The notes under the pieces: model-generated
What the model saw: the letters and a program-made list of their open reading frames with translations, nothing else
The model's database searches: none
What the model was told of the DNA's origin: nothing
NCBI RefSeq assembly: GCF_001466665.1
Contig: NZ_KQ758903.1
Span: 1,609,684 to 1,673,683 of the forward strand
DNA length: 64,000 bases
Direction: 5' to 3'
From: Dehalogenimonas alkenigignens
Lineage (GTDB): Bacteria > Chloroflexota > Dehalococcoidia > Dehalococcoidales > Dehalococcoidaceae
Part shown: positions 2,069-15,054 of the stretch, piece by piece
Position numbering within the stretch: the stretch's first letter is position 1
Layout: every line of letters starts with the position of its first letter
Made by a program: the position numbers and the translations under genes

Positions 2069-2421
2069 GGGGACGCGTGGTTTCGACAGTGGAGGTTAGT
2101 TACGGAATTGCAGGTTGAGCTTGCCGCTAAGCTCACTAATCCTGGTGGCAAAACACAATTGGCGAACGTGAACTCGTTCTCGCCGGCTAAATAAAGCCAG
2201 CGCATCCGCCGCTCCTTACCCCGACGGGAGCGAATCGGGTGCCGACAGTTGGGGTGCCGCTGACCTGACGCCGACATGGGAGGCGAAAGACTAATCGGCT
2301 TGCCCGGCGAGATTCCGCCGGTTGAAGCTCAAAGGGCAAGAACAAAGATCCGGCTAAACCTGTAGCACATTCCGGGCAGTCTCCATTGGACGGGGAGTTC
2401 GACTCTCCCCCGTCTCCACCA
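2069..2421 (+). ncRNA. ssrA: tmRNA (ssrA), 3' end is the island attachment site
   Basis: The 353-nt gene begins GGGGACG and ends with CGTCTCC followed by ACCA, so the tRNA-like acceptor stem closes with one G-U pair and the CCA is encoded. The T-arm is GGGGAGTTCGACTCTCCCC. The tag reading frame is at 2161-2190 and encodes GERELVLAG followed by TAA, which I recall as the Dehalococcoides tag. A mobile island begins directly after the CCA. The 3' 25 bases (2396-2420) recur with three mismatches at 25128-25152, so ssrA is the integration target. Confidence 0.96.
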
Positions 2422-4006: not shown

Positions 4007-4184
4007 GGGAAACCTCTCTTATCGAGTTTCCTCTTGAAGCGACGGACAGAGCGACTTCAGCGATGGTGTTGAAGAAGTGCTGTAACATTATGTCGTCTAA
4101 CTCTCCACCTTCAAAAGTGGCGGGGATTGTATAGCGAAGGGGTATACCCGTCAACGACTTATCGGGCATCTCCTTGGGATCCAT
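3999..4184 (-). CDS. Small hypothetical protein between two recombinases
   Basis: A 61-residue reading frame whose ATG follows immediately after the TAG of the upstream resolvase gene and whose end overlaps the start of the large recombinase by eight bases. This tight packing argues for a translated gene. The protein contains FEGGELDDIMLQHFFNTIAE, with no domain I recognise. It might be a recombination directionality factor or another accessory of integration, but that is inference from position only. Confidence 0.6.
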   Translation of the reverse strand: MDPKEMPDKSLTGIPLRYTIPATFEGGELDDIMLQHFFNTIAEVALSVASRGNSIREVSHD

Positions 4185-4805
4185 CTAGTTGGTCTCCCTG
4201 CCCTTGTCAGCGTCGAGTAACCGCTTGAAAGTGGCATAACCGATGCGGAGCTCTCTCGCTGCCTGGCGTCTTGATAACTCTCCAGCTTTGAGGCGCTCCA
4301 AAACTGCTCCATAAGTCTGATTGAAACCTCGCCTGTCGGTTACCCTTGGTCGCCCTATCTGCATCCCCTGTTTCCGGGCACGGTCCATGCCGGCCTTAAC
4401 CCTTTCTCTCAAGATCGACCTCTCCATTTGGGCATAAGCGACAGTGATGTAATAAAGGACTTCACCAAAAGGCGAGGTGGTGTCCAGCCAGGGCTCGGTG
4501 TAAGAACGAAGACCGACTCCCCAGGTCTTCAGCCTTTCGAGGGTAGTCGCGGCATCAAGCACTGACCGGAAAGCCCGGTCCATTCTCCAGACAAGGATCA
4601 AGTCAAAACGCCGCTTACTGGCGTCACTAAGAAGTTCGCGCCAGGAGGTCCTATGGACAATATCGGTGGCAGACACTTGATCTGAGTATTCATTGTAAGT
4701 CTGCCAACTCTGCGACTTTACGAACTCTCTTAAAGGCATGAGTTGGGTGGCAAGGTCTTGATCCTTGTCCGAGGTCGATACTCTGGCGTAAATCGCGACT
4801 CTCAT
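4185..4805 (-). CDS. Small serine recombinase (resolvase/invertase family)
   Basis: At 206 residues this has the length of gamma-delta/Hin-type resolvases. The N-terminal catalytic domain starts MRVAIYARVSTSDKDQD with the active serine in ARVS. The signatures LILVWRMDRAFRS and AQMERSILRERVKAGM follow, and a helix-turn-helix sits at the end (GELSRRQAARELRIGYATF). It could resolve multimers or invert DNA, or assist the large recombinase encoded two genes downstream. The reading frame is intact and is the first gene of the recombinase trio. Confidence 0.92.
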   Translation of the reverse strand: MRVAIYARVSTSDKDQDLATQLMPLREFVKSQSWQTYNEYSDQVSATDIVHRTSWRELLSDASKRRFDLILVWRMDRAFRSVLDAATTLERLKTWGVGLRSYTEPWLDTTSPFGEVLYYITVAYAQMERSILRERVKAGMDRARKQGMQIGRPRVTDRRGFNQTYGAVLERLKAGELSRRQAARELRIGYATFKRLLDADKGRETN

Positions 4806-4809
4806 GCTT

Positions 4810-5220
4810 TTATCCTTTGGACTGGATCTCCTGCTTCAGGGTATCGATAAGGGCATGCACCTTCGTATCGATCTTCCTGTAAGCTGCAATTGAGACTTCC
4901 AGCTTGTCGGCTTCTTCCTCACAATAAGCAGCGATGTTGTCACTCATGTCCTTTAACTGATCCGCTTCGAGGACAAACCTTGCCTTGCCATGGGTTGTCT
5001 TTGAAGATATCTCAAAGGCAGCGAAGACTTGACCGATATTAGTTGCAGGGATTTCGAGGCCGAACTCTTCAAGTATTCGGTCGGATATCTCTTTGGCGGT
5101 AGCCCGAGTTGTGCCTTCAGAGGCTAGAAGGTGGGCGGTAACCACGACTGCCAGACAGTTTTTAACTGAGATCAGGTGCGATGCCTTATGAACACACTCT
5201 TTGAGTTCATCGTAATTCAT
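4810..5220 (-). CDS. Hypothetical island protein
   Basis: I chose the ATG at 5220 (protein starts MNYDELKECV) over a start 12 codons upstream because GGAGAAACC sits at ribosome-binding distance and the ATGA overlaps the stop of the preceding gene. The 136-residue protein is predicted mostly helical, with a middle section (TAKEISDRILEEFGLEI) that could be a winged-helix-like fold and an acidic C-terminal helix (EEEADKLEVSIAAYRKIDT). I recognise no family. It belongs to a continuous minus-strand operon running from 8948 down to 2354. Confidence 0.7.
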   Translation of the reverse strand: MNYDELKECVHKASHLISVKNCLAVVVTAHLLASEGTTRATAKEISDRILEEFGLEIPATNIGQVFAAFEISSKTTHGKARFVLEADQLKDMSDNIAAYCEEEADKLEVSIAAYRKIDTKVHALIDTLKQEIQSKG

Positions 5221-5468
5221 CTGGTTTCTCCTTCCCCTGTACTCTGTTTGGTACATATATCGGCGGTGGAGTCGCTACCCGTACCCTTCGTACCCGTACC
5301 CTTTTCCTCCAAAACCTTCTTGATGTAGTTCTGGTCGGAGATGAAAGCCCTGAAATGTCTGCCGTCTTTCGGACAAATCAGCATGATGAACGGTTTGTTC
5401 GATTCCCTTCCTTTAGCGGTCCTGATTGATAAAGGACTGCCACAGATCAGGCAATTCACAGTGTTCAT
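5217..5468 (-). CDS. Small zinc-finger-like protein
   Basis: An 83-residue protein whose N-terminus, MNTVNCLICGSPLSI, carries a CxxC pair, with a further Cys at LICPKDGRHF. This suggests a small zinc-binding ribbon. The C-terminal third is rich in Gly, Thr and Ser and looks disordered. It overlaps its downstream neighbour by an ATGA, and its start lies four bases inside the ParB-like gene, so the three are translationally coupled. No function can be assigned beyond possible nucleic-acid binding. Confidence 0.65.
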   Translation of the reverse strand: MNTVNCLICGSPLSIRTAKGRESNKPFIMLICPKDGRHFRAFISDQNYIKKVLEEKGTGTKGTGSDSTADICTKQSTGEGETR

Positions 5469-6097
5469 TCTGGTTGATACCTCTCTAGAAAGAATTTACA
5501 CAGCAGATACATTGCAGTGCCGCGGGTATTGGGATTGTCTTTGCTTGAGTCCTTTGCCACAGGAAGAATCCTCGCAAGAGCCTCCTGCACTGTTTCGAGT
5601 TGAGGCCGAGTGAATTGCAGCTGCATATGAGAAAGCCTGGCGGCTTGCGCCTGCTCCCAGGCCTCAAGATGCTCAGCTAGAGTGCCTTCACTGATGGTGG
5701 AAAGAGTCGAAAGGCTTTGTGAAGTTTCCGGAAGAACAGATAACACTTCACTTTCGGGAATGGACGAGAGAATCTCTTTAAGAAGAGCACCCTTCAGAGC
5801 AAGGTCGTCTTGGCCCCTAAGACCATTGAGTGCCTGTGCCAAAAGCATGGCTTCGGCATCTTTCAGGTCAACAACGACGCAAGGAACCAGCTCGATCCCG
5901 ATGTCCTTGATCACCTTCAGCCGCTGATTTCCAGACAGGACTTCGTATAGGCTTTGTATTGGCCTCACCACCAGAGGCTCAACTAGACCGTATCGGGTGA
6001 GGCTGTTTTTCAGGCGTTCGAATCCAGCTTCGTCCATCTGATTCGGGTTCCAAGGTGCTTCCACCAAAACGGTCAGAGGCAGGGTGATGATTTTCAT
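5465..6097 (-). CDS. ParB/Srx-type nuclease-domain protein
   Basis: Residues 1-90 form a ParB N-terminal-like domain: ITLPLTVLVEAPWNPNQ, then LKNSLTRYGLVEPLVVRP and VLSGNQRLKVIKDIG, where the last is the GxxR box seen in ParB and related NTPase or nuclease proteins. The remaining 120 residues are helical and unassigned. There is no ParA partner nearby, so classical plasmid partitioning is unlikely. Domains of this type are also found beside phage DNA modification genes, which fits the overlapping Mom-like gene upstream (6094-6786). The function is probably recognition or processing of island DNA, but that is inference. Confidence 0.8.
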   Translation of the reverse strand: MKIITLPLTVLVEAPWNPNQMDEAGFERLKNSLTRYGLVEPLVVRPIQSLYEVLSGNQRLKVIKDIGIELVPCVVVDLKDAEAMLLAQALNGLRGQDDLALKGALLKEILSSIPESEVLSVLPETSQSLSTLSTISEGTLAEHLEAWEQAQAARLSHMQLQFTRPQLETVQEALARILPVAKDSSKDNPNTRGTAMYLLCKFFLERYQPE

Positions 6098-6786
6098 TTC
6101 GTCTCCTTTTTGGGGTAGGGTTGAGGGTTTACGGTCAGTTGGGTTTTCAAACTTGGATCTAGAAAATAGATATAGCGATGCTTTCGGGTTTGTGGCACTA
6201 CCCTGACTTCGATGCCTTGCTCCTCAAGATACTTGATCGAGTGCGATCCCAGGGTGTGACTGAGGCTCCGGGAGTGCCTCACTCGTCCGTCACCCAGGTC
6301 AAACATCGGCATAGCCTCAGACAATCCGGTGTAGATCCACCCAGTCGCCTGGTAGATAGTTCCAAGATGACCCTGGCCTGGATCGGCGTAGCTAACAATG
6401 AATTTAGTTTTTGTGTGCTTCTTGAGAGCCCTCAGAGCAATACTGATCACTCGTGATTCCGAGTTGGAAGGCAGTTCATCCGAAAGCCATAAGCGAGAAA
6501 GGGTCATACAGTCTTCGGGATTCGCACCCTGGACCAGGCGATAAGCGTGTGCCGGTCCAGAACCAAATGTAATTGCCCCAAGAAGCCTGTTGCCTTGAAG
6601 CACGCCGAAAGCTAGCTGCGTGCCACCAGGCATCGAGTGAAGGTAGTGGTTTCTGACCAAGATCGACTTGGCAGCAACGAAGGGTATGGGCTTAACCAGA
6701 ATGGATTGGAGCGCCGCCGTCGGGATCGGACCGCGTCTTTCATCCTGGCTGGATGACGTGCTGACCATTACACTCGCGGCGCTCAT
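6094..6786 (-). CDS. Mom-like DNA modification protein
   Basis: The 230-residue protein has the GNAT-like hallmarks of the phage Mu Mom family: NHYLHSMPGGTQLAFGV near residue 45, LSRLWLSDELPSNSESRVI, then SYADPGQGHLGTIYQATGW and YTG. Mom converts adenine in DNA to a carbamoyl-modified base that blocks restriction enzymes. Here it lies between a ParB-like protein and a primase-helicase with 4-base overlaps on both sides, so it is part of the mobile element's own operon. Modification of the island, or of the host chromosome, would be the expected role. Family placement is by motif recognition; the modified base in this host is unknown. Confidence 0.75.
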   Translation of the reverse strand: MSAASVMVSTSSSQDERRGPIPTAALQSILVKPIPFVAAKSILVRNHYLHSMPGGTQLAFGVLQGNRLLGAITFGSGPAHAYRLVQGANPEDCMTLSRLWLSDELPSNSESRVISIALRALKKHTKTKFIVSYADPGQGHLGTIYQATGWIYTGLSEAMPMFDLGDGRVRHSRSLSHTLGSHSIKYLEEQGIEVRVVPQTRKHRYIYFLDPSLKTQLTVNPQPYPKKETK

Positions 6787-8948
6787 GAACCTAGCTCCTC
6801 ATACTCTGGATCGTGGAGGACTTCCCTGAGCATCCACCGGGCATACCTTTCACGCCCTTTGTCGCCAGACGATATGCTGACCTTGAGAATCCGTCGCCAC
6901 TCAGGGATGCTCAAATCCCTCCACTGATCCAATACTTCGGACTCATTTTGTGGCTCAATTTCACCCGGAACCCCTCTTAGGGGGTTTTGATCCGCAACAT
7001 CCGCAACATTACGATTGGCGCAGCTTTGGACACAATCCGCAACATTTTCGGATTTTTGGGCTTCTGTTGCGGATCGAAAAGGCCCATTTTGGACGTTCGA
7101 GTCAAAGCTGGGTGTTGCGGATGTTGCGGATTGACGCACTGTATGAGGCAAATAACGCTTCCATGCATCATCAAAATCAGCCCGATAATACCCCTTCGGC
7201 GTCTGGTTTCCTTCCCTGATCGACTGGCTGCGGATCCCATAACTCTTTAAAAGCGAGGCCATTTTCTTACCATTTATCGGCTTGCCCCGCAGATCGTTCC
7301 ATGGCGATTCATCCAGACTCAACAGACCTTCTATCATGTCAGCCGTGAACATGTAGGTTTGGGTACTGAAAATTTGTTTGAGATCTGTTAGGAGTTGCAC
7401 GCCCATCGAATCGTTTTGGTAATTGTCTTTGACCATAAGAGCGATAGCGGCTTGTCGGGCTTTTTCAAAACAATCCCTGCCTGCCGCATCAGCTATGGCC
7501 AGAAGAGGTTCCCAGCAGTCAGCGGCTCGATCATTAAGTTCTTCAGGCAAAGCAGGGACTGTTACCTCAAGGCTGCTTGCTGCCGTGGCAATGCGCCCCT
7601 TGAGCGCTGTCGCTTCAGGTTCATGGGTACGGCGGCGGAATCGTTCGACTGTCTCATCGGGCATGCGCCTCTTCAGGATTATTAGAATGCTTCGGTCAGC
7701 TACGGTATCAGGCAAGTTACCAATCCCGGCGATGGCTTTCGGACAGTAGGTCGACAGGTCTTTATAACCGATATTGGCACCCTGTCCTGTGCAGATCGAT
7801 GCCTTACCACCACGACGGTAACCGGTGTTCAGGATTCCGCGAAGCGTCTCTGAATATTCTTCGGGACCGCTGAAGGCAGCGTCCGATTCATCGAGCAGAA
7901 GCGTCGGAGATTCGGCATCGATCTTACGGGCTAATACCGCCGGTGTTACCCTCCCCGTGAACCAAGGCTTAGCCACCAGCAGTTCCAGGACTTCCAGTAA
8001 CCTGGTCTTACCCGACCTCTTTTCTGGCGAGGTAATCGATAGATACGGGGTCGTGTCGAAATGATCGAAGGCATGACTATGGATTACCCAGAGCGAGATG
8101 GCAAGTAAATAATGTTCAGGCAAAACGACAAAACGCCTGATAAAACCTGAGACGTCGATGATCAGCTGGTTCAAGTCAACAGGTTTGGGTAGCTCCCATC
8201 GTGGCGAACTCTCCACCAGGGCTTCAAGCTCCGCCCGATTGTGGCCTGAACCGAGCCAGTCATAGACGTCTTCTTTGTGGCCAAGTCCCGGCAGGGCAAC
8301 AACTTTGACCGATCGGGCAACGGTAATAAGTGACTTGGCTACCTGCTCGGCATGGGCTCTGCCAGGATCGTCGTTGTCGGGTAGTATGACGACGGCTCGA
8401 TTCTTAAAGAAAGGTACAAATTCATCGCGCCATTTACCTGCCCCCATTGGCGAGCAGGTGGCAACAAACCCCTGACCGACCAGGGAAAGAACGCCCTTCT
8501 CTCCTTCGGCCACGTAAACCGTCGTTTCGAGAGGTGTTGAGATAAGTTCAGGGAGGCGGAAAAGTACCCGCCGGACGCCCTCCAAGTTATAGATCCAACC
8601 GCCCCTGCCATCAGGACGGCGCTGTCTGAAACCCTTCGGCTGATAACGGACGACCTGGAAAAGAACTTTGCCAGATTCATCTAGGTAATCGTAATTGGCA
8701 ACTTCAACGGATTTCTCGGGATTTGAATCAATTTCAATCCCTAGCTTAGAAGCAAGCTTCTTTAGATTACCCTTTTCACTACAAGCCAGGCACTTGAAGC
8801 CTCGTTCATTGAAGCGAAGATTGGGGTGATTCCGATCATCGTGAAAAGGGCAGAGAGCTGTGTACCAACCGTTTTTATCGGGTTTGGATACTTTCTCCAA
8901 CCGAGAAAGTATTTTAATTAAAATGTCGTTCTGATGAGTGACTGCCAC
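6783..8948 (-). CDS. Primase-helicase (CHC2 zinc finger, Toprim, DUF3631-like ATPase)
   Basis: The 721-residue protein begins with a CHC2 zinc finger (CPFHDDRNHPNLRF, then KCLACSEKGN). A Toprim domain follows (VYVAEGEKG, then VVILPDNDDPGRAHA), and then a DUF3631-type helicase with a Walker A-like SPEKRSGKTRLL and a Walker B-like PTLLLDESD. A low-complexity linker near residues 605-660 is encoded by repeated 9-bp units (see the repeat entry). This combination primes and unwinds DNA in phage and plasmid-like elements, so the island probably replicates after excision. It starts the tightly overlapping minus-strand operon. Confidence 0.88.
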   Translation of the reverse strand: MAVTHQNDILIKILSRLEKVSKPDKNGWYTALCPFHDDRNHPNLRFNERGFKCLACSEKGNLKKLASKLGIEIDSNPEKSVEVANYDYLDESGKVLFQVVRYQPKGFRQRRPDGRGGWIYNLEGVRRVLFRLPELISTPLETTVYVAEGEKGVLSLVGQGFVATCSPMGAGKWRDEFVPFFKNRAVVILPDNDDPGRAHAEQVAKSLITVARSVKVVALPGLGHKEDVYDWLGSGHNRAELEALVESSPRWELPKPVDLNQLIIDVSGFIRRFVVLPEHYLLAISLWVIHSHAFDHFDTTPYLSITSPEKRSGKTRLLEVLELLVAKPWFTGRVTPAVLARKIDAESPTLLLDESDAAFSGPEEYSETLRGILNTGYRRGGKASICTGQGANIGYKDLSTYCPKAIAGIGNLPDTVADRSILIILKRRMPDETVERFRRRTHEPEATALKGRIATAASSLEVTVPALPEELNDRAADCWEPLLAIADAAGRDCFEKARQAAIALMVKDNYQNDSMGVQLLTDLKQIFSTQTYMFTADMIEGLLSLDESPWNDLRGKPINGKKMASLLKSYGIRSQSIREGNQTPKGYYRADFDDAWKRYLPHTVRQSATSATPSFDSNVQNGPFRSATEAQKSENVADCVQSCANRNVADVADQNPLRGVPGEIEPQNESEVLDQWRDLSIPEWRRILKVSISSGDKGRERYARWMLREVLHDPEYEELGS
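6991..7130. repeat. Six copies of a 9-bp repeat in symmetric arrangement (possible origin)
   Basis: TCCGCAACA occurs at 6991-6999, 7000-7008 and 7036-7044, and its exact complement TGTTGCGGA at 7065-7073, 7113-7121 and 7122-7130. The order is tandem pair, single, inverted single, inverted tandem pair. The repeats lie in the linker-coding part of the primase-helicase gene. Iteron-like spacing beside a replication gene suggests a replication origin or a protein-binding array. Confidence 0.6.
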
Positions 8949-9016: not shown

Positions 9017-10072
9017 TCACCGCATAACCCTGCCTGATCTGGGTAGAGTGATCGACAGGATTTTCGCAATTCTAGCCGTGTTTTCTTGCGCTGCTGATTC
9101 CCCAATTCCTTCTCTCTGGGCTGCTGCGATTACTGAGTCGCCAAGGAATATTCGATCAAAAAGGCAATCGAAAGTCGCCCGATCCCAGTGCATTGAGCGT
9201 CTATAACCCCACTGCGACATCGTTTCACAGAAATTCTTGTAATCATCTGCTCCCAATTTTTCACGGGTATCTTGACGTCGCATCGATGCAAGAAAATACT
9301 CGCGATAGACTCTTTTCTTTTCTCTAGGTACGCTCGAATCTGAATACAACCGTTTTATTTGTCCGCTGAACAACGTGCCAAGGACACCATCGATCGTTGC
9401 CCTTGGACGCTTAACGTTGGCAAACGGCCTAGATGCTTCGACCATATCCAGATTGATTTGAAATAGAGGTGCCCACCAGCATTTCAGACCTGCTCGATAA
9501 TGCAAATGAATCGATTTCCTGAGGTAACGCAAGATCGATTCGACATGCGGTTGCACAATCTCGTAGAACCGATTTCTAACCTCAGGTACCAACGAGTCGT
9601 TAACGCTATCGGATAATCGCTTAAGCGGTAAAATGCTACCTAGAGCCTTTTGAGAGTACCTTTCGTTATACTTTTCACGGAACTCTTCGAATTTCTCGAA
9701 GACATCGATGACATCTTTGTCTTTGCAGAATTCTTCAGCTTCAGGCATGTAGGGCGCCGATGACACCGCCAGGTCATAAATATCGACAGGCGAGGCTACC
9801 GCAACAACATTTGAGAAGATTCGTGTTGATCGGCCTCTCGATACCCCAAACATATTCATGCGTAACGAGCGTCTCAGCGTTGAGGTTTTTTCGTAAATTT
9901 CGGTGAACACGGGTAAATACTCTTGCCTCAGTTCGATCCTCGAACTCCTGAAAACAAGAGCTTCAGGCCGTTCCTCGAACAATTCCTGTAATAAGGACAT
10001 GGCAATGACAAAATCGAGTAAATCGTTTGACCATTCGAGTTTGTTTGCGTTTTCAAAGGTTAGGTGGTCCAT
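9017..10072 (-). CDS. Hypothetical protein with a C-terminal HTH-like segment
   Basis: A 351-residue protein I cannot place in a family. It is rich in charged residues and aromatic pairs. The middle section contains HYRAGLKCWWAPLFQINLDM. The C-terminal segment from about residue 310 (FLGDSVIAAAQREGIGESAAQE) reads like a sigma-type helix-turn-helix that could bind DNA. It points the same way as the primase-helicase 68 bases downstream and could be the first gene of that operon, perhaps its regulator or replication initiator. No clear ribosome-binding site precedes the ATG at 10072. Confidence 0.6.
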   Translation of the reverse strand: MDHLTFENANKLEWSNDLLDFVIAMSLLQELFEERPEALVFRSSRIELRQEYLPVFTEIYEKTSTLRRSLRMNMFGVSRGRSTRIFSNVVAVASPVDIYDLAVSSAPYMPEAEEFCKDKDVIDVFEKFEEFREKYNERYSQKALGSILPLKRLSDSVNDSLVPEVRNRFYEIVQPHVESILRYLRKSIHLHYRAGLKCWWAPLFQINLDMVEASRPFANVKRPRATIDGVLGTLFSGQIKRLYSDSSVPREKKRVYREYFLASMRRQDTREKLGADDYKNFCETMSQWGYRRSMHWDRATFDCLFDRIFLGDSVIAAAQREGIGESAAQENTARIAKILSITLPRSGRVMR

Positions 10073-11600: not shown

Positions 11601-13049
11601 CTAAGTTCGCCAGGGTGCCCAGTCCGCAGGTGTGTGCCAAGGTTGCCATTTGTCGGCATTTTCACCCCTAGGATACTTACCATAAGTAATATCTGCCACC
11701 TTGACCATCATCGGAGCAAGCATCGGTATACTAGCTAATACGCGACCAATATCGTGAGTTGGAGTGTTTGGTGAACTCCATGGACAGACACTGACACAGA
11801 ATTGACAGCCGAATGCCGTTCTTTGTTTCATACATTGAAACCCATCATATTCCCACTTATAGGCACCGTTAATCAAAGATGGTTCTGGATCTTTTCCGAT
11901 AACTTGTGATACGCAATTGGCTGAGCACCGACCGCATACTTTGCAAAATTCTCGCAAACCAAAATTTATCGGCTTGTCAGGGACGAGTGGTGCGTTCGTT
12001 GCAACAACTATAGTCCGTAATCCAGCACCCCAAGGTGCAATAGCTAGACCGGATCGCCCAGCCTCAGCTAACCCCGCTCTAATTGCAAAAGGAGTCTCAC
12101 AACAATCCTCATCTGCAATGATCATGCCATAGGCGTCGTAACCCAAGCCTCGGATAGTAGACTCCATGTATTTGGAATAGACATCTTGATCACTGCAAGT
12201 TGTTGCTGTTGATGCATTGGCAAGGGGGCCCACCCCAGCACGGTGGGTTGGTAAACTTGTGAAAATGCCCATTACAATTGCATATTTGTAGGGATAGGGC
12301 CAAGCCACAGGTCTGCCAGGATCTATCCAACCTTTGGGACGGTAACCACGTAAGGTGCCTGAAGTTGCAGCAACTTTGTAAAGAAACGGTTTCATTTTAT
12401 CGTCAATTGCACAGACACGAATTTGATCTACACCAAACCAGTGCGCCACACCTTTTAACTTCACAGTCATCTCTTCGGCAGAAATTTCAACCTTCGCCGC
12501 ATTAATTGGGAGTTTAATCCAATTCTTCTCTGCGGTGTTAACATGCCAATGATCCGAGGCTTGGACTATCGCTGTCCCGAAACGGTAGTCTTGCAATTCC
12601 TCTGGTGTCATGTTGGCTATCCATTCATTACGAGAGGTAACCGCCTCCTGCGCAATTTTACCCCATTCCCCGGACCAGTCTTGATTCGTTGCAGCATTAC
12701 CTACAGCCTGAAAACCGTCTTGTCGCCCGTCGGTAAAGGGTTGGTATTGACCGTTCACTTTTGTTGATCCCAAAGCAAGCTCATTAGGTACTATTTCAGT
12801 TGTACCCAGCGAATTCGCAGTGTCATCTATCTCTTTGACCCACCAAGGATATTCGGTTGGATACTGGGGCAAATAGGGATCTTTAAGACGGCTATTGAAG
12901 AGCATTCCTTCATTAGTTCCTGGCAGTTCTTTAATTGCAGCTACGGCAGCCAAGGAAGCGAAACCGATACCTGACCCACCCGTAATCTTCAAGAAGTCTC
13001 TACGACTATAACCTCTCTCTTTTTCATTCAATTTGTGTTTGACGAGCAT
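11601..13049 (-). CDS. rdhA: Reductive dehalogenase catalytic subunit RdhA
   Basis: A 482-residue corrinoid and iron-sulfur enzyme that removes halogens from organohalides as terminal respiratory reductase. The Tat signal RRDFLKITGGSGIGFASLAA is near residues 16-35. The first cluster motif is CKVCGRCSANC and the second is CMKQRTAFGCQFCVSVCPW, both near the C-terminus, with all eight cysteines present. The first motif lacks the usual proline after its last cysteine. It differs clearly from the other two intact RdhA in the window, so a different substrate is likely. Regulation may come from the two-component system at 15.8-18.8 kb. The substrate cannot be deduced. Confidence 0.95.
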   Translation of the reverse strand: MLVKHKLNEKERGYSRRDFLKITGGSGIGFASLAAVAAIKELPGTNEGMLFNSRLKDPYLPQYPTEYPWWVKEIDDTANSLGTTEIVPNELALGSTKVNGQYQPFTDGRQDGFQAVGNAATNQDWSGEWGKIAQEAVTSRNEWIANMTPEELQDYRFGTAIVQASDHWHVNTAEKNWIKLPINAAKVEISAEEMTVKLKGVAHWFGVDQIRVCAIDDKMKPFLYKVAATSGTLRGYRPKGWIDPGRPVAWPYPYKYAIVMGIFTSLPTHRAGVGPLANASTATTCSDQDVYSKYMESTIRGLGYDAYGMIIADEDCCETPFAIRAGLAEAGRSGLAIAPWGAGLRTIVVATNAPLVPDKPINFGLREFCKVCGRCSANCVSQVIGKDPEPSLINGAYKWEYDGFQCMKQRTAFGCQFCVSVCPWSSPNTPTHDIGRVLASIPMLAPMMVKVADITYGKYPRGENADKWQPWHTPADWAPWRT

Positions 13050-13260: not shown

Positions 13261-15054
13261 TCACCTCTCGCTTGTTTGACTTTGGTTAAATAAGTCTTCT
13301 ATTAAATACTTACCTATTTCGTTAATACATAGGGGTTGTGATTGACGGCTCCTGTCCCGATATACCGTAATTCCCTTCAGACCCCACTCCCAGGCCATCA
13401 TAAAGACCCGGGCGATATCTTCACGGCTGGCACTCTTGGGGAAGTTCACCGTCTTACTTACGGCATTATCGATATGCCGCTGGAACGCCGCCTGGATACG
13501 GACATGCCATTCAGGCGAAACACGGTGGGCGGTAACAAAGATTTTCCGAACGTCTTCCGGCACTTCTTTCCGGCTGTGCAGGTGGTTAGAGGTCACTAGT
13601 TGCTCTATAAGCTCACGGGAGTAAAAGCCGCGCTCCCGGGCGATTCGTTCAAAATAAGGGTTGATCTCGAGGAGATTTTCGCCATCGAGGATGTTTCTCA
13701 CAAAAACCGCGGCGAAGATAGGTTCGATGCCTGACGAGACCCCGGCGATAATGGAGATGGTTCCGGTCGGGGCGATGGTAGTGCAGGAGGCGTTCCTCAT
13801 GGGGAGGCCGCGTTTTTCATAGATACTACCGGACCAGGCGGGGAAGACCCCCCTTTCGAGAGCGAGGTTGTAAGAGGCTTCCTTGGCGCGTTCGGAGATA
13901 AACTCCATTATTTCCTCAGCCATTGTGATAGCTTTGGTCGAGTTGTAAGATACACCCAGCTGGATGAGCATATCGGCAAAGCCCATGACGCCAAGGCCGA
14001 TCTTCCTTGTTAGTCTGGTTGTGCGTTCGATCACCGGGACAGGGAACTTGTTGACGTCGATGACGTTATCCAAGAAGCGGACAGCGATCGGGATCAACCG
14101 CGCCAACTTATTAAAATCAATGGAGAGGGTGCCACCCTTCTCTTTAAGCATGGCGGCGAGATTGATGGAGCCGAGGTTGCAGGACTCGTAGGGGAGTAAA
14201 GCCTGCTCTCCACAGCCGGTGATTGTTTCTAACCGGCCCAAGCTGGGCGTGGGATTATCGCGGTTGATGCGGTCTATAAAGACGAGACCGGGGTCGCCGG
14301 TGCTCCAGGCCTGGTCGACGATACGCTTAAACACGGCAGAGGCATTGAGACTACCGACGGCTCGACCGGTGTTGGGGTCGATGAGGCAGTAATCGTCGCC
14401 GGATCTGACTTTATCCATGAAGTCATCGGTTACCGAAACAGAATTATAGAAATTGGTTAGAAGGCTCGGGTTGCTCTTGGCATTGATGAAATGGAGAATA
14501 TCGGGATGGGATACGCTCATAACAACCGAGTTGCAGCCACGCCTGACTCCGCCTTGGCGGATGTAGTCCGCAGCTCCGGCAAAGACGTGGATTAGAGCCA
14601 CCGGACCACCGGCGGCATCAAAGTGTTCACCGACGGCGCTGCCCGTGGGTCTAATATGCGACACGTTGAAGCCGATGCCCCCACCGCTTTTATGGATCAT
14701 TGCAGTATATTTCACAGCATCGAAGGTCTCTTCCAAGGAATCTGGCACCGGGAGCACGAAGCACGATGAAAGCTGCCCAGTCTCGGTGCCGGCGTTAAGA
14801 AGGGTGGGGGAGTTGGGCAGGAATTCAAGAGAAGCCATAGCCCGGTAGAATTCATCGGCGATGGTATCGACTTCAACTTCCGGGCGATATTGTTTCTCGG
14901 CTTGGGCGACAAATCGGGCGACGCGGCGGAACATTTGCTCCGGTGTCTCAGTGATCCGGCCATTGCGATCACGCCTAAGATAACGTTTCTCCAGCACTCG
15001 GAGAGCGTTGGGGGTGAGGGCTGATTCAATTTCTCTGGTTATTTCAAGGACCAT
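13261..15054 (-). CDS. nrdJ: Adenosylcobalamin-dependent (class II) ribonucleotide reductase, C-terminal tail apparently missing
   Basis: NrdJ reduces ribonucleotides using an adenosylcobalamin-generated radical. The 597-residue protein shows FLPNSPTLLNAG near residue 77, MIHKSGGGIGFNVSHIRP, the substrate-site cysteine block TGCGEQALLPYESCNLGSINL split across the active loop, and CTTIAPTGTISIIAGVSSGIEP. After GITVYRDRSRQSQPL the sequence turns AT-rich (CINEIGKYLIEDLF) and ends without the Cys-pair tail that normally recycles the active site. The ATG at 15054 has AAGGAGAG upstream and sits about 30 bases after a structured RNA leader. Its core-like composition inside an AT-rich island suggests separately acquired cargo. 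Confidence 0.9.
   Translation of the reverse strand: MVLEITREIESALTPNALRVLEKRYLRRDRNGRITETPEQMFRRVARFVAQAEKQYRPEVEVDTIADEFYRAMASLEFLPNSPTLLNAGTETGQLSSCFVLPVPDSLEETFDAVKYTAMIHKSGGGIGFNVSHIRPTGSAVGEHFDAAGGPVALIHVFAGAADYIRQGGVRRGCNSVVMSVSHPDILHFINAKSNPSLLTNFYNSVSVTDDFMDKVRSGDDYCLIDPNTGRAVGSLNASAVFKRIVDQAWSTGDPGLVFIDRINRDNPTPSLGRLETITGCGEQALLPYESCNLGSINLAAMLKEKGGTLSIDFNKLARLIPIAVRFLDNVIDVNKFPVPVIERTTRLTRKIGLGVMGFADMLIQLGVSYNSTKAITMAEEIMEFISERAKEASYNLALERGVFPAWSGSIYEKRGLPMRNASCTTIAPTGTISIIAGVSSGIEPIFAAVFVRNILDGENLLEINPYFERIARERGFYSRELIEQLVTSNHLHSRKEVPEDVRKIFVTAHRVSPEWHVRIQAAFQRHIDNAVSKTVNFPKSASREDIARVFMMAWEWGLKGITVYRDRSRQSQPLCINEIGKYLIEDLFNQSQTSER

Follow-up and report, generated by a model that had tools for sequence, protein, structure and literature searches.

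A bulged tRNA-Gly-like RNA linked to mom genes of viruses and ssrA islands, and its candidate role as glycine donor in DNA modification

Introduction

The base made by the Mom protein of phage Mu was named purin-6-yl glycinamide (Swinton 1983, title), and glycyl-coenzyme A (glycyl-CoA) was named as a possible Mom donor in the accessible part of a later paper (PMC7824862). We analyzed a stretch of 64,000 nucleotides (nt) from Dehalogenimonas alkenigignens (positions 1,609,684-1,673,683 of the 1,851,576-base genome), hereafter the window, in which an RNA resembling a glycine transfer RNA (tRNA-Gly) is nested in the 5' end of a mom gene. To our knowledge, no donor of the Mom glycinamide has been established since 1983, when the base was identified.

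A closely related described system is the ssrA module of 16 Dehalococcoides islands, for which the accessible text of McMurdie et al. 2011 (PMC3146451) names a Mom homologue and predicts restriction resistance 'via methylation'. The Dehalococcoides module is similar to that of the window: it holds dsiB, dsiA, a gene of ~150 amino acids (aa), ParB, Mom and a gene of ~700 aa, and a 76-bp tRNA-Gly-like locus with anticodon DCC and a 5-nt loop was described at the start of mom (PMC3146451). In contrast to the present account, Mom was predicted to methylate, and the function of the tRNA, its bulge, its viral relatives and the donor idea are all absent from the accessible text of that paper. The module and the tRNA-like element in the Dehalococcoides mom copies are therefore already known, and the idea of an anti-restriction role for this mom in islands, already proposed by McMurdie et al. 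2011, is not new.

Two further systems are relevant. Phage Mu Mom (8bv8) shares the fold, the essential serine and a C-terminal PYPK with the window protein; unlike the window, Mu has Com, and no tRNA-Gly was found near its mom. The staphylococcal FemXAB proteins are GNAT-like enzymes that use non-proteogenic tRNA-Gly, that is, a GNAT-like enzyme is fed by glycyl-tRNA kept from translation; however, the acceptor is a cell-wall precursor and not DNA, and the tRNA is not inside the enzyme gene.

We propose a class of tRNA-dependent DNA modification in which glycyl-tRNA supplies Moms with glycine; a dedicated, translation-disabled tRNA-Gly inside or beside mom, together with a ParB partner, would be carried by many viruses and islands. 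We lean slightly toward this proposal. As far as the literature searched shows, two elements are new: the donor hypothesis, and the finding that a bulged, non-ribosomal tRNA-Gly accompanies viral Moms as a class. No link between Mom and glycyl-tRNA was found in that literature, which lacked preprints and most subscription papers.

Results

A tRNA-Gly-like RNA nested in mom

The features of the mom gene are as follows.
6094..6786, minus strand: mom, encoding a 230-aa DNA modification protein of the Mom family (PF25680, 4.2e-68)
6454..6456, minus strand: codon of Ser111, counterpart of the serine altered in inactive Mu Mom (S124A) (alignment with 8bv8)
6707..6782, minus strand: tRNA-Gly-like RNA nested in the mom 5' end (relaxed ARAGORN, model R1, covariation)
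6720..6720, minus strand: bulged A of the T-stem, signature of the class (structure parse)
6747..6749, minus strand: anticodon GCC in the contracted loop AGCCA (relaxed ARAGORN, structure parse)

No part of the locus is more informative than the nested tRNA, which was absent from the preliminary description of this DNA. Its first base directly follows the stop codon of the neighboring primase-like gene, and it has an encoded CCA end, four bases before the Mom profile match. Relaxed ARAGORN called a tRNA-Gly at 6707-6782 on the minus strand and at the equivalent position in 6/7 family loci; neither default ARAGORN nor Rfam picked up the window copy. Model R1, which was built from 26 tRNA copies including this one, scored it at 82.7 bits (E 2.5e-17).

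The anticodon arm of the window copy has a 6-bp stem and the 5-nt loop AGCCA, with A at position 33. The copy thus departs from a tRNA-Gly of translation in its bulged T-stem, its 5-nt loop and its lack of U33. The three tRNA-Gly of the host (GCC, UCC and CCC) have the same acceptor end and U73, but their T-stems are intact and their loops have 7 nt. With this tRNA-Gly set of its own, the host can decode without the island copy.

The Mom residues encoded by the tRNA stretch were predicted with a low local distance difference score (pLDDT; residues 1-14 below 50, with means of 42 and 53 for blocks 1-10 and 11-20). Across 17 related loci, third codon positions were 58% identical in the tRNA stretch versus 33% in the Mom domain, and amino-acid identity was 40% versus 57.5%. 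The stretch is conserved as RNA, because its third positions are more conserved while its amino acids are less so. A coding cause was rejected, as third positions exceed those of the Mom domain and the copies lying 3' of mom (3' class) occur in all three frames (18/27/9). An integration-site remnant was also rejected; ssrA serves as the attachment site, and the nested tRNA is a complete one.

Structure of the tRNA class

In the alignment of 26 sequences, 91.3% of the cells were paired, compared with 70.4% in shuffled and 36-49% in slid alignments, and two-sided changes numbered 106 against 35.6 expected from shuffles. Pairing reached 98.3% in the acceptor, 100% in the D and 96.9% in the T stem, and 72.7% in the anticodon stem, which is misaligned in some rows. 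In 81 distinct viral copies, 97.9% of the cells were paired (acceptor 99.3%, D 97.9%, anticodon 94.6%); this alignment was fitted to the model and spans 100/120 loci, and the search pattern fixes nothing beyond the T-arm and a portion of the acceptor 3' end.

We also examined 56 distinct R1 matches, which include host tRNAs and chance matches. In 43/56, the five T-stem pairs were all present together with one extra A at a constant position, and G1:C72, C2:G71, G3:C70 and U73 were each present in at least 52/56. The anticodon loop had 5 or 6 nt in 45/56, where the presence of CC follows from how the loop was sought. Nearly all copies carry a Gly-type NCC anticodon. The identity set of tRNA-Gly comprises G1:C72, C2:G71, G3:C70, U73, C35 and C36; the class combines this set with a cloverleaf that shows covariation. 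The class bulge sits between T-stem pairs 50-64 and 51-63. According to the accessible text of PMC8219837, pairs 49-65, 50-64 and 51-63 weigh most on EF-Tu binding.

Linkage of the tRNA class to mom

Mom loci were collected from relatives, genome contigs (24), viral contigs (44) and 20 reference phages and plasmids. The references were chosen by us from match lists in which 324 phage and 63 plasmid records matched; in the viral contigs, a single Mom protein query gave no relatives and an alignment query gave the 44. For the forward test, 87 loci were reduced to 64 clusters at 90% clustering, and the Mom zone was defined as lying within 150 nt of the Mom domain. Default ARAGORN called 10 tRNAs in the zones (19,030 bases), all on the mom strand, of which 8 were Gly and 2 of undetermined type (cc/ac anticodons), and 1 tRNA (Pro) outside them (263,770 bases, fourteenfold larger). 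Relaxed ARAGORN made 19 Gly calls in 127 zones versus 0.03 per shuffled replicate (100 replicates). In addition, R1 found untrained viral copies directly 3' of mom, for example at L048, L049, L052, L054, L056 and L057, and further ones at L058, L062, L066, L069 and L071. When representatives were found through Mom itself, 42/79 had the tRNA beside mom.

The converse test began from the tRNA. A pattern of the bulged T-arm and acceptor end found at least 120 sites in viral contigs, and among the matches listed, Mom lay on the same strand within 300 nt at 113/120. The tRNA was 5' of mom at 60 and 3' of it at 53 of these 113 listed sites. A matched pattern without the bulged A gave 16 sites, 0/16 with Mom, and a second bulged pattern gave 1 site, with Mom. 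Among the 7 listed sites lacking Mom, L181, L212 and L215 lie 24, 23 and 87 bases from an end of the contig DNA, L195 has no recognizable 5' half, L184 and L223 are complete, and L130 is the seventh. That is, in the viral contigs scanned, the bulged tRNA-Gly is linked nearly exclusively to mom.

Across 393 genomes from the class to which the window belongs, each of the 11 R1 matches listed at 72 bits or more abuts Mom; these are mostly training members or close to them, and below this level (69 bits down) inspection covered only the window's own genome. Ordinary tRNA genes also match R1, at up to 56.8 bits in that genome. On the starred branches of a quick tree (141 rows, 61/138 inner branches open), the 3' arrangement required at least 5 changes and the 5' arrangement at least 4, which weakly suggests repeated rearrangement of the tRNA relative to mom.

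Some viral copies (L049, L055, L059, L062, L066 and L069) have 66-70 nt and a reduced or missing D-arm, with the T-arm bulge and acceptor end intact. Psychrobacter phage Y8A (L091) has a tandem pair of short tRNA-Gly-like sequences with almost no D-arm at 2659-2726 and 2731-2799, directly 3' of Mom. The paper on this phage reported no tRNA genes and listed a further Mom (ORF69) at another place of the genome. At L013 (2137-2214) and L078 (3610-3684), a tRNA-Gly downstream of mom is missing the T-stem bulge.

The window protein and phage Mu Mom

The PF25680 profile matched the window Mom with an E-value of 4.2e-68 and a score of 229.5 against a cut-off of 27.1 bits, over positions 2-202 of 202. 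PHROG 1384 'Mom-like' matched at 2.8e-52, and PDB entry 8bv8 at 3.8e-20 by sequence. The predicted structure (pLDDT 90.2) had phage Mu Mom 8bv8 as its best structural match (Z 23.1, root-mean-square deviation 3.0, 186 aligned residues, 29% identity); the next-best GNAT reached Z 13.8, and Foldseek matched 8bv8 at 1e-15. The identity to Mu Mom was 29-31% across nearly the full length.

The title of 8bv8 describes an inactive S124A mutant, and comparison with wild-type Mu Mom shows that the altered residue is the second serine of NSESR. This serine aligns with Ser111 of the window protein, and its equivalent was retained in 27/28 aligned Moms. CoA-dependent GNATs carry an R/QxxGxG/A pyrophosphate loop. 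The motif was not found in the window Mom and 25/28 aligned rows; in the other 3/28, it lies a few residues further on, within the next helix. The position of the essential serine coincides with the site of this loop in CoA-type GNATs. Sequence and modeled fold identify the product of the middle gene as a genuine Mom homologue, as the preliminary description had claimed: profile, fold and conserved essential serine agree. The outcome that would have spoken against that claim, placement in another acetyltransferase group without Mom active-site residues, was checked and did not occur.

The ParB partner

Of 222 Mom loci, 115 had a ParB homologue on the same strand within 700 nt; it lay downstream in islands and, in viruses, mostly upstream. 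The link between ParB and Mom noted in the preliminary description therefore holds beyond chance. In the 79 representatives, both ParB and the tRNA were found in 39, ParB only in 9, the tRNA only in 3 and neither in 28 (Fisher p 2e-10, ignoring kinship). ParB usually completes the cassette, and we suggest a putative role in DNA loading or targeting.

Discussion

Glycyl-tRNA as the glycine donor

One peculiar tRNA-Gly shape, located almost only beside mom in the scanned viral contigs, points to glycyl-tRNA. We consider it probable that glycyl-tRNA is the glycine donor of Mom and that the elements carry a dedicated, non-ribosomal tRNA-Gly for it. The cassette would consist of a Mom enzyme of GNAT-like fold, a ParB-domain partner and the dedicated tRNA-Gly nested in mom. 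Host glycyl-tRNA synthetase would charge the nested tRNA because its acceptor end, U73 and C35-C36 match those of ordinary tRNA-Gly. Once charged, it would be a poor substrate for EF-Tu and the ribosome, since its T-stem has the bulged A and its contracted anticodon loop lacks U33. Mom would then move glycine from the charged tRNA onto an adenine of the element DNA, and the resulting N6-glycyl-adenine would rearrange into the glycinamide known from phage Mu, which has equal mass; such a rearrangement is described for glycyl-adenines. DNA modified in this way may withstand restriction when the excised island moves, and, as the preliminary description suggested, host DNA may carry an unusual base. 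Moms without their own tRNA, including that of Mu, would draw on host tRNA-Gly. The mom reading frame is mostly open through the tRNA, and in 57/85 5'-class cases no usual start codon follows the tRNA; one transcript may therefore yield either Mom or the tRNA, and could thus limit a toxic enzyme. A tRNA-Gly that looks chargeable and unfit for translation is better fitted by a glycyl-tRNA donor than by acyl-CoA donors.

Several observations weigh against this proposal, chiefly the many Moms with no tRNA close by, that of Mu included, and the acetyl-CoA work on Mu Mom. No such tRNA lies near Mom in 37/79 of the representatives found through Mom itself, nor in 17/20 reference loci from phages and plasmids, those of Mu and Listeria A511 among the 17; the 3/20 with a tRNA are Psychrobacter phage Y8A, Arthrobacter phage Zartrosa and Microbacterium phage Antuna, whose depositor-annotated tRNA-Gly(ccc) is on the strand opposite mom. 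At L005, from the window's genus, Mom has ParB nearby and no tRNA was found, with a single R1 match in that genome at E 1e-7. Copies adjacent to Mom lack the bulge at L013, in the L074 family, in Zartrosa and in Antuna (there on the opposite strand). Complete bulged copies at L184 (1183-1258) and L223 (near 4074-4150) have no recognizable Mom beside them; their partner may be a different enzyme or a Mom located further away. Finally, Karambelkar et al. (2020) reportedly found binding of acetyl-CoA and of iron by Mu Mom, and are said to have proposed radical chemistry from acetyl-CoA.

Alternative explanations

The tRNA-like fold could regulate translation or processing of a toxic mom message, as an operator or RNase P site, with no role as donor. 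Over-expression of Mom is toxic, and Mu mom is tightly controlled by an RNA hairpin and Com, according to the accessible parts of PMC4461284 and PMC6483171. The tRNA also overlaps the mom reading frame, which is open through it in 84/85 5'-class and 57/75 3'-class cases. Loci L210-L229 and L276 were counted as tRNA-less in this survey, R1 not having been applied to them. However, the copies 3' of mom cannot serve as a start-site operator, and regulation alone leaves the conserved NCC, U73, G1-C72/C2-G71/G3-C70 and encoded CCA unexplained. We regard a purely regulatory role as unlikely.

In a second explanation, the published view, the Mom group is supplied by acetyl-CoA (with iron) or by glycyl-CoA; the tRNA would be incidental, such as an old integration site or a spare tRNA. 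The acetyl-CoA and iron work on Mu Mom and the glycyl-CoA proposal cited in the Introduction are in its favor. However, the islands integrate at ssrA and not at the nested tRNA, the host already owns GCC, UCC and CCC tRNA-Gly, and the tRNA is complete, on the same strand and beside Mom in many viral contigs, which makes this explanation distinctly unlikely.

GNAT toxins acetylate glycyl-tRNA, and the GNAT-like fold and the Gly-type NCC anticodon of nearly all copies would suit a Mom that acts on charged tRNA instead of DNA, the nested tRNA being a decoy or antitoxin, but the 29-31% identity to Mu Mom over nearly the full length, the retained essential serine and the DNA-replication and partition-type genes that adjoin relatives of the window Mom make this very unlikely.

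If glycyl-tRNA is the donor, the missing donor of the glycinamide adenine of phage Mu would be named, and tRNA-dependent chemistry would be extended to DNA. The bulged tRNA-Gly would also provide a sequence signature for spotting momylating phages and islands, and the class would explain how such phages get reported without tRNA genes.

The ssrA island and its gene module

The other features of the module are as follows.
2069..2421, plus strand: ssrA transfer-messenger RNA (tmRNA) gene, integration target of the island class (ARAGORN; PMC3146451, PMC13390414)
2354..4006, minus strand: large serine recombinase (dsiB-like), 3' end overlapping ssrA (Resolvase 5.1e-32, Recombinase 1e-17, PHROG 95 integrase 1.2e-97)
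4185..4805, minus strand: small serine recombinase (dsiA-like) (Resolvase 3.9e-34)
4810..5256, minus strand: module protein of 148 aa, no family above cut-offs (open reading frame, ORF)
5465..6097, minus strand: ParB N-terminal-domain protein, 210 aa (ParB_N, E 2.3e-12)
6783..8948, minus strand: primase-like DUF3631 protein, 721 aa (DUF3631, E 7.7e-48)

Inward from ssrA, the minus strand encodes the two serine recombinases, the 148-aa ORF, an 83-aa ORF, ParB, Mom and the DUF3631 protein. This gene order and the overlap of dsiB with ssrA agree with the ssrA island module of PMC3146451. The primase-like protein also matched a DnaG zinc ribbon (24.4 bits) and Toprim_2, both just below the cut-offs. 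The ParB/mom and mom/primase-like overlaps have 4 bases each, ATGA both times. Thus, ORF coordinates and family matches confirm the preliminary description of ParB-like, Mom and primase-like ORFs joined by 4-base overlaps, and the tmRNA at 2069-2421 with the two adjoining serine recombinases supports the island setting that it had assumed.

The dcpA island of Dehalogenimonas alkenigignens IP3-3 was placed at 1,612,218-1,635,409 (PMC13390414). This interval corresponds to 2535-25726 of the window, and the gene content agrees; the accessible text of that paper, which treats the IP3-3/NSZ-14 dcpA island, has 0 occurrences of 'mom'. For the 482-aa protein encoded at 11601-13049, a 4Fe-4S domain scored under its cut-off, and we take the protein to be the dehalogenase because the published dcpA island covers those coordinates. 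A ribonucleotide reductase large chain is encoded at 13261-15054, also inside the published interval. An ORF of 351 aa on the minus strand (9017-10072) matched nothing at the Pfam and NCBIfam cut-offs and gave a weak PHROG match (E 0.14).

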